A DNA stretch of 64,000 bases from positions 2,930,666 through 2,994,665 of the forward strand of contig KV440964.1 of the NCBI GenBank assembly GCA_001636495.1, written 5' to 3'. This document shows positions 43,196 through 43,756 of this stretch, in pieces. The first letter of the stretch is position 1. Every line of letters starts with the position of its first letter. This DNA is from Sutcliffiella horikoshii. GTDB lineage: Bacteria; Bacillota; Bacilli; Bacillales; Bacillaceae_I. The notes beneath the pieces were generated by a model that saw only the letters and a list, made by a program, of their open reading frames with translations, was not told the DNA's origin and ran no database searches. The position numbers and the translations under genes were made by a program.

Positions 43196-43211
43196 TATCA
43201 GCGCACATACG

Positions 43212-43243
43212 AAAGCGACAGGGAGTTTCCCCTGTCGCTTTTT
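43212..43243 (+). terminator. Terminator after rpmB
   Basis: AAAGCGACAGGG and CCCTGTCGCTTT form a 12-bp perfect stem with a 6-base loop and trailing T-run. Confidence 0.93.
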
Positions 43244-43394
43244 ACTTTTGGGAGAAGATATTGGATTGTTGGGTCGGGATGGTATAGATTTGGTTTTGGA
43301 CATTATGGTTTACATAACTTATTTATCGTTTACATCAATACGTTATGTGTGCGTAAAGCCATAGAAATACGTATTTTTCAGCTTGTAAAAAGCA

Positions 43395-43602
43395 TTCGGA
43401 CAATCTTTTTATAGTTTCGGACATTTTGCTAGTATGTTAAAGGGGGGTTCGGACATTGCACTTCCTTGTTTGGACAAGAATTCTTTGTGTTTGGACAAAT
43501 GAAAAATTGGTTCAGACATTTGCCGGCAAACTTTGGACAACTTTGCAAATTCTTCGGTCAACTTTTGAAAAACTTCGGACAAGTTCAACAAAACTTCGGA
43601 CA
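43395..43602. repeat. Ten-copy, 21-bp-periodic TTYGGACA motif array
   Basis: The octamer TTCGGACA/TTTGGACA (two copies with one change) starts at 43395, 43416, 43448, 43469, 43490, 43511, 43532, 43553, 43574 and 43595. Spacings are 21, 32, then seven of exactly 21. The 13 bases between motifs are not conserved. An outlying copy starts at 43295. The array fills the gap (43244-43650) between the terminators of convergent rpmB and spoVM. Read on the minus strand, eight units keep one frame open as heptads of the form [LM]S[EK]xxxx, but there is no good ribosome site and the plus strand is also open. Confidence 0.85.
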
Positions 43603-43650
43603 TTCTCCAACACACAGCCTCTATTGACTAAATTTCATCGTTGCATTTAT

Positions 43651-43674
43651 AAAAAAAGCACCCTTTCGAGGTGC
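43651..43674 (-). terminator. Terminator after spoVM
   Basis: GCACC and GGTGC with a 7-base loop, followed by TTTTTTT on the minus strand, 2 bases past the spoVM stop. Confidence 0.85.
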
Positions 43675-43675
43675 C

Positions 43676-43756
43676 TTACTCCTTCTTAAACGACCCAAGC
43701 ATAGCTCGGATTATTCCCCCCAAGAATCTAGGTAGCTTGATTGTATAAAATTTCAT
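43676..43756 (-). CDS. spoVM: Stage V sporulation protein M
   Basis: 26-residue peptide starting MKFYTIKLPRFLGG and ending with MLGSFKKE, almost identical to B. subtilis SpoVM and exactly its length. It is an amphipathic helix that recognises the convex forespore membrane and recruits SpoIVA for spore coat assembly. GAGGAGG lies 7 bases before the ATG. It lies between thiN and rpmB as in B. subtilis. I found no convincing sigma-E promoter by eye. Confidence 0.96.
   Translation of the reverse strand: MKFYTIKLPRFLGGIIRAMLGSFKKE

Follow-up and report, generated by a model that had tools for sequence, protein, structure and literature searches.

The window analysed here, a 64,000-bp stretch of the 4.26-Mb genome of Sutcliffiella horikoshii, contains between the convergent genes rpmB and spoVM an array of ten short direct repeats (Table 1). 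The predicted proteins around it are L28, SpoVM, a thiamin pyrophosphokinase, and Asp23. Eight of the ten octamers are exact copies of TTYGGACA, and the positions given for all ten in a preliminary description of this DNA were reproduced, with successive steps of 21, 32, and then seven times 21 bp. That description also had the array filling the space between the terminators of the two genes, which does not hold, since 412 bases separate the two hairpins and the array takes up 208 of them. An eleventh exact TTTGGACA is found at 43295–43302, 100 bp upstream of c1 and out of phase. Single octamers with up to one mismatch show no excess over chance in the window (124 versus a shuffle mean of 120); the signal resides in the spacing. 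The repetition at this spacing goes well past what chance would give: over the host genome, the exact two-copy pattern TTYGGACA-N13-TTYGGACA was retrieved 22 times, versus none for the reversed control, and with up to two mismatches 83 times (41 forward and 42 reverse), versus 20 (9 and 11) for the control.

Table 1. Features of the region between rpmB and spoVM (positions in the window).
Feature	Position	Strand	Sequence or remark
rpmB, ribosomal protein L28	43007..43195	+	Ribosomal_L28, PF00830
rpmB terminator-like hairpin	43211..43242	+	Hairpin prediction
Leader	43343..43394	+	Weak conservation across array family; A/T tracts every ~10–12 bp
Site c1	43395..43402	+	TTCGGACA
Site c2	43416..43423	+	TTCGGACA
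c2–c3 long spacer (32-bp step)	43424..43447	+	Same location in complete Sutcliffiella arrays
Site c3	43448..43455	+	TTCGGACA
Site c4	43469..43476	+	TTTGGACA
Site c5	43490..43497	+	TTTGGACA; spacer after c5 similar to the c5 spacer of the array family
Site c6	43511..43518	+	TTCAGACA, one off
Site c7	43532..43539	+	TTTGGACA
Site c8	43553..43560	+	TTCGGTCA; T at position 6, frequent at c8 in related species
Site c9	43574..43581	+	TTCGGACA
Site c10	43595..43602	+	TTCGGACA; family-wide conservation stops ~3 bp beyond
spoVM terminator-like hairpin	43655..43677	-	Hairpin prediction
spoVM, 26 aa	43676..43756	-	SpoVM, PF08183

The arrays represented among the two-copy matches of the host genome are found at about ten loci, plus three of a second type (see below). 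Exact pairs were found in 13 of 16 Sutcliffiella genomes, ranging from 0 to 126 per genome (0 or 1 in five of them, G001, G002, G007, G011, and G015), and all controls gave 0. Within the family, the three-copy pattern appeared in 13 of 18 genomes, every one of them Sutcliffiella. Among 153 arrays of any kind in the loci covered, 59, all from Sutcliffiella, consist of ten octamers on a common plan of steps (21, 31–33, 21/22, 21/22, and five times 21 bp), from which single-base departures are rare. The search that yielded these 59 arrays permitted listed spacings only, and the spacings were then re-measured without constraint. Measured in this way (569 spacings in 92 clusters), steps of 21 bp occur 416 times, 22 bp 47 times, and 32 bp 51 times, and 558 lie at most 1 bp off a multiple of 10.5, the 11 off-phase values being 9, 12, 12, 14, 23, 54, 54, 60, 60, 60, and 75 bp. 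The helical phasing and the dispersed repeat class suggested from the window alone are therefore both borne out, the latter by 59 arrays of the same plan in Sutcliffiella together with relatives of other plans elsewhere in the order. The 558 in-phase spacings represent a phase that has been kept and not hundreds of independent trials, since the arrays share an ancestor, and the phasing could be inherited rather than required. A 19-bp step in arrays of Halobacillus also counts against strict phasing.

The sites also have positional identity. The c5 spacer is similar to ATTTGAAAATTTGG and differs from the c6–c9 spacers, which mostly have A at the start and AAA(A/T)C at the end, while conservation extends only through the TTT that comes after c10. 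The profile of the 59 arrays shows A/T tracts every ~10–12 bp, weakly conserved, in the ~50 bp 5′ of c1. A literature search by motif and by description, with most subscription journals outside its coverage, gave, among the titles and abstracts listed, no account of a phased ten-site array, and the dispersed ten-site element is apparently undescribed. In some long stretches of chromosome no arrays were detected (~1.0–2.6 Mb in G014, the rpmB array excepted, 2.75–4.28 Mb in G005, and 1.0–2.97 Mb in G000). A rule of chromosomal position was rejected. With dnaA placed in three genomes, these stretches lie at different distances from it, and those of G014 and G005 do not coincide.

Comparison of orthologous arrays indicates which bases matter. 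In 46 orthologous pairs from 16 groups of complete arrays, the core (the six fixed octamer bases) has diverged at 66 of 2760 positions (2.4%), versus 248 of 920 (27%) at octamer positions 3 and 6, where variation is concentrated, and 1386 of 5597 (25%) in the spacers, a core-spacer contrast of about tenfold in which the pairs have species in common and are not independent. A wider set of 23 orthologous groups, which takes in shortened and misregistered arrays, gave 7.0% for the core, 32.6% for positions 3 and 6, and 29.6% for the spacers. At the rpmB-spoVM locus itself, nine chosen comparisons among seven orthologous arrays gave 15/540 (2.8%) for the core, 60/180 (33%) for positions 3 and 6, 307/1154 (27%) for the spacers, 272/767 (36%) for the 90-bp leader before c1, 202/454 (45%) for the tail, and 199/1023 (20%) for the remaining gap. 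With 2.4% divergence against 25% in the spacers, the core is under selection in place, and as judged from these alignments the selection is purifying. This agrees with the earlier preference for DNA recognition over recent duplication, binding by a protein being the probable form of such recognition. The statement that the 13 spacer bases are unconserved is not fully right, as positions 9, 18, 19, and 21 of the repeat in sites 6–9 come near core conservation.

Octamer position 6 behaves in a different way in one species. At c6–c9, it is mainly T in G004, G005, G006, G010, G012, and G013, and A prevails in G000 and G008. The 18 arrays sampled from G014 have A in 176 of their 180 sites, even at those where orthologues carry T or C, a count biased by the loci having been fetched, the rpmB one apart, with a motif that has A at this position. 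The rpmB array of G014, which was not selected by motif, has A in all six of its remaining octamers, and c1–c5 of the sister genome G008 read T, T, T, T, and C. Over 11 orthologous arrays, changes from T/C to A in G014 number 24 and the reverse 0, compared to 81 versus 66 in the spacers (p = 4e-6). For the other focal species the overall outcome was mixed, with changes to A versus to T/C of 3 and 11 in G012 (p = 0.04), 11 and 2 in G000 (p = 0.10), 6 and 16 in G008 (p = 0.11), 5 and 14 in G013 (p = 0.13), 2 and 6 in G005 (p = 0.44), and 7 and 8 in G004 (p = 1), p values that are uncorrected and come from overlapping pairs. Three-copy matches with up to two mismatches number 105 in G014, of which 73 are exact, and 100 in G004, of which 18 carry a single mismatch and none is exact. 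Without a trans-acting reader, it is difficult to see how a degenerate base could change at many loci with no matching change in the spacers, and the G014 shift resembles the trace that co-evolution with such a reader would leave.

The arrays have been both gained and lost. The rpmB-spoVM gap, compared in 16 genomes, has ten sites in seven of them, five in G005, three in G003, and six in G014, while it is short and array-free in G002, G007, G009, G011, and G015. In G001, it holds an unrelated insert (L085, 1690–1958). According to a tree of the flanks, the array was gained by the ancestor of 11 species that form one clade (support 100/100), and was lost again in G007, which is nested in this clade. 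We located in G007 13 of 14 array flanks from G005 or G006, where eight sites are closed up (no octamer by eye), one is replaced by other sequence, two keep arrays, and two could not be bridged. Of the 11 sites with an array in G005 or G006 that could be judged, nine are thus without one in G007, and so the element is dispensable. The arrays of L307, L310, L314, and L317 were lost in G007, because an orthologous array is present outside the G005-G006-G007 group. Of the eight missing stretches, six start 72–138 bp ahead of c1, that of L310 starts 417 bp ahead of it, and that of L314 past a neighbouring ORF, and they end 34–91 bp beyond the last octamer. A single precise excision unit was rejected on account of these variable ends. 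At least four arrays are retained in G007 (L048, L092, L328, and L331).

Such a history might suggest a selfish, non-autonomous mobile element, whose octamers would bind the transposase or recombinase moving the whole leader-array-tail unit. Consistent with this are the wide variation of copy number by species (0–126 exact pairs per genome), the gain on one branch and the loss in G007 at rpmB-spoVM, the nine of 11 judged G007 sites without array, and the finding of complete leader-array-tail units in tandem, 291–323 bp apart, at L314 (1516–2048) and L187 (~1192–1880), both on reverse strands. However, the profile of the 59 arrays shows no terminal inverted repeat, as conservation stops ~3 bp past c10 and the right end has no match in the left leader. 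The ends of the G007 missing stretches vary, and orthologues retain the core as the spacers decay, which is unexpected for a dead insertion. The recurrent neighbours of non-orthologous arrays, as seen in the 40 largest neighbour-protein clusters, are an internal insertion sequence (IS) and large common families such as ABC ATPases, with no helper gene among these clusters, and the analysis as a whole brought up no candidate for a reader protein. Where array-bearing and array-free sites were compared, the borders were too diverged to place any target-site duplication. Overall, we regard such a mobile element as rather unlikely. Mobility of the element, or selection against it in some lineages, is possible.

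With regard to placement, 16 of 49 arrays lie in convergent gaps, versus 10 of 90 controls with a minimum length of 100 bp (p = 0.003) and 31 of all 239 controls (p = 0.002), and four of 49 in divergent gaps, versus 23 of 90 (p = 0.014) and 38 of 239 (p = 0.19, non-significant), rough counts in which neighbours are predicted ORFs of at least 80 aa, small genes are missed, and orthologues and IS-split arrays are included. Considering the 73 arrays with both neighbours called, those in codirectional gaps are oriented with the genes in 24 cases and against them in 24, and 22 further arrays lie in convergent gaps and three in divergent ones. A position between convergent genes, as first described, is therefore true for the window array and enriched in the class, but codirectional gaps are more frequent. 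This preference for 3′ gaps, and the GGA present in every unit, would also fit a 3′ RNA element recognised by an RNA-binding protein. Against it, there is no strand preference relative to codirectional neighbours, neither in the raw split of 24:24 nor in the 21:17 that remains after removing three IS-neighbour arrays (called “with”) and seven rpmB copies, miscalled as “against” because both rpmB and spoVM are shorter than 80 aa. Folding of the window array is at shuffle level on both strands (z of 0.18 and 0.59), and no Rfam family came near its cut-off between 42600 and 44500 in the window, so we find an RNA element very improbable.

A functionless minisatellite, grown by tandem duplication, would account for the 21-bp unit in direct repeat and for the shortened rpmB arrays of G005 (five sites), G003 (three), and G014 (six), but it is largely refuted, and would now be quite surprising, in view of the ten-site plan with one 32-bp step common to 59 arrays, the different identity of the c5 and c6–c9 spacers, and a core ~tenfold more conserved than the spacers. 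The weakest alternative, a translated heptad-repeat peptide (minus-strand LSE, as formerly proposed, or plus-strand FGQ), hardly deserves credence, as the open ORFs seen in the window (minus 43409–43615, 68 aa, and plus 43466–43627, 53 aa), the coincidence of octamer positions 3 and 6 with the third base of codons when the plus strand is read as FGQ, and the frame-dependent 16–57 of 73 arrays in which the c6–c10 part alone is open, are set against 32- and 22-bp steps that shift the frame, only 6–13 of 73 complete arrays open throughout in any single one of the six frames (6–7 per minus frame), an FGQ-frame spacer divergence of 0.23, 0.19, and 0.11 by codon position, the third being the least, and variable octamer bases that fall on first codon positions in the LSE frame. 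Open frames over arrays may presumably be found catalogued as hypothetical proteins with LSE or FGQ heptads.

The explanation that we favour, and that we consider rather probable, is that the ten-site element is a double-stranded docking array for a putative oligomeric, sequence-specific DNA-binding protein, with a preference for 3′ gaps. The element would be composed of a weakly conserved A/T-tract leader and ten directly repeated TTYGGHCA sites, two helical turns apart except for one three-turn step after site 2, so that the putative oligomer could dock on a single side of the helix, and would probably bend or wrap the 208 bp. Docking would favour the gaps lying 3′ of transcription units, where the complex may have an architectural, boundary, or torsional role. 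More tentatively, and with somewhat less than even confidence, we propose an undescribed element in which the ten-site phased array would serve a dedicated oligomeric wrapping reader at transcription-unit ends, the recognised base would drift genome-wide together with the reader, and lineages might discard the whole system. If the docking explanation is true, the arrays would be a ready bait for a new architectural or regulatory DNA protein, and nature would provide the controls, in the form of sister species with and without arrays and of a species with the recognised base changed across its arrays.

Several known systems invite comparison. The bcr repeats of the Bacillus cereus group, likened here by description alone, are also dispersed repeats in bacilli. 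The iterons of plasmid origins are direct repeats about two turns apart next to A/T-rich DNA, but no replication gene adjoins the window array, and the element has many chromosomal copies. The 59-array profile lacks the terminal inverted repeats of a MITE, and, unlike CRISPR, the arrays have an 8-bp core and 13-bp spacers with a consensus, related between species. REPs are reported to have many dispersed extragenic copies, often between convergent genes, and to be targeted by IS3-family elements such as IS1397, ISKpn1, and ISPsy8 (PMC1525189). The Sutcliffiella arrays are likewise dispersed, extragenic, and IS3-targeted, but REP and BIME sequences are palindromic and form stem-loops, whereas these are non-palindromic direct octamers on a ten-site plan with no RNA fold. 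The TAACTGA direct repeats of Beggiatoaceae, Cyanobacteria, and Bacteroidetes form intergenic dispersed sets with no known reader and a patchy distribution, a set having two to six heptamers in the main genome and up to 43 elsewhere, mostly immediately 5′ of start codons (PMC4679880). The likeness lies in a short direct repeat occurring in dispersed sets with patchy distribution, and the difference in the ten octamers at 21 bp and their rarity in divergent (promoter) gaps. BldC of Streptomyces binds head-to-tail on direct repeats with the consensus AATTXXXX(C), and the optimised oligo, which includes TTCGGACA, has a 9-bp spacing (PMC5859096). Our units of 21 bp and the absence of AATT from the c6–c9 consensus set the arrays apart, and the TTCGGACA of the oligo looks like a chance match.

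Several arrays of the host genome are interrupted by a ~1.4-kb IS3-family element. Its orfB matches NF033516 with 287 bits (cut-off of 160), while orfA reaches just 31 bits, the domains found are rve, HTH_21, and HTH_Tnp_1, and the termini are TGGAGG...CTCCA, in accordance with the two-ORF transposase, TG...CA ends, and short target duplication of IS3. The insertion point is within the array octamer, NNTT^YGGHCA. All five full copies of the host genome are inside arrays, in the same orientation and directly 3′ of an octamer NNTT, four of them with matching 4-bp duplications (TGTT, GCTT, ACTT, and GGTT) and the fifth, in L034, with mismatched TGTT/ACTT and six array sites remaining. In G006, G012, and G013, the seven right ends with flanking DNA (only right ends were considered) are all inside arrays, with an unchanged octamer position in five cases and with the reverse orientation and another offset in two, both from G013. 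A copy in G009 lies outside any array, and the copies in G005 are 77% identical. The IS thus targets the arrays, and the best explanation is that an IS3-family element has evolved separately to land in the octamer. The arrays offer a clear case of an IS3-family transposase that homes to a dispersed repeat without palindromic symmetry. A mobile unit composed of array plus IS was discarded, since the paired arrays of the host result from interruption by an IS, which has its own termini and target duplications. In L032 (~845–2734), a single array carries two IS copies two sites apart, one full and one with an internal deletion, and two IS copies, in L032 and L036, have an early orfA stop that is absent from the others. 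Both ends of the main contig are in IS sequence beside array sites (L031, 1–103, and L040, 2518–2602), and so the contig was probably cut there.

Arrays also appear beyond Sutcliffiella. Across the order (397 genomes, 135 genera), the three-copy pattern with up to one mismatch was found in 24 genomes belonging to 12 genera. Reversed controls gave one match in G083 and two in G193, and the single match of several genomes could be chance. In Halobacillus locisalis (G160), arrays such as L282 and L285 hold eight TTCGGACA-like sites, the fifth of which is followed by a 19-bp step, and this is another genus with another fixed plan. The arrays of G040 and G083 are made of TTTGGACAGTAAA-like units in up to 40 copies. 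It is evident that the octamer and the 21-bp step recur across genera, with the remaining features, including the spacers, being different. A search across other phyla gave at least 119 stretches, and 26 loci were inspected, all outside Sutcliffiella, five of them from Bacillales-type genera (L119, L124, L131, L150, and L195) and most of the rest either plain 21-bp tandem repeats whose spacers are almost identical, or located within long ORFs. Viral contigs gave 18 matches, none of them resembling this class of array, 16 being within open frames longer than 200 codons and those of L381 and L385 having identical units. A Bacteroidetes assembly has seven TTTGGACA-like sites at 21 bp with variable spacers (L192, 401–535). 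Two 20–21-bp arrays, L290 from 1548 and L293 (reverse) from 1734, attain 40 and 33 sites with up to two mismatches, and in the long arrays of G040 and G083 blocks of units are repeated at a higher order. The second, sparser type of the host genome is built on TTTGGACAGTAW in steps of ~21 bp (L041, 1152–1201, L042, 1367–1482, and L043, 1131–1201), and arrays of this type reach 40 copies in G040.
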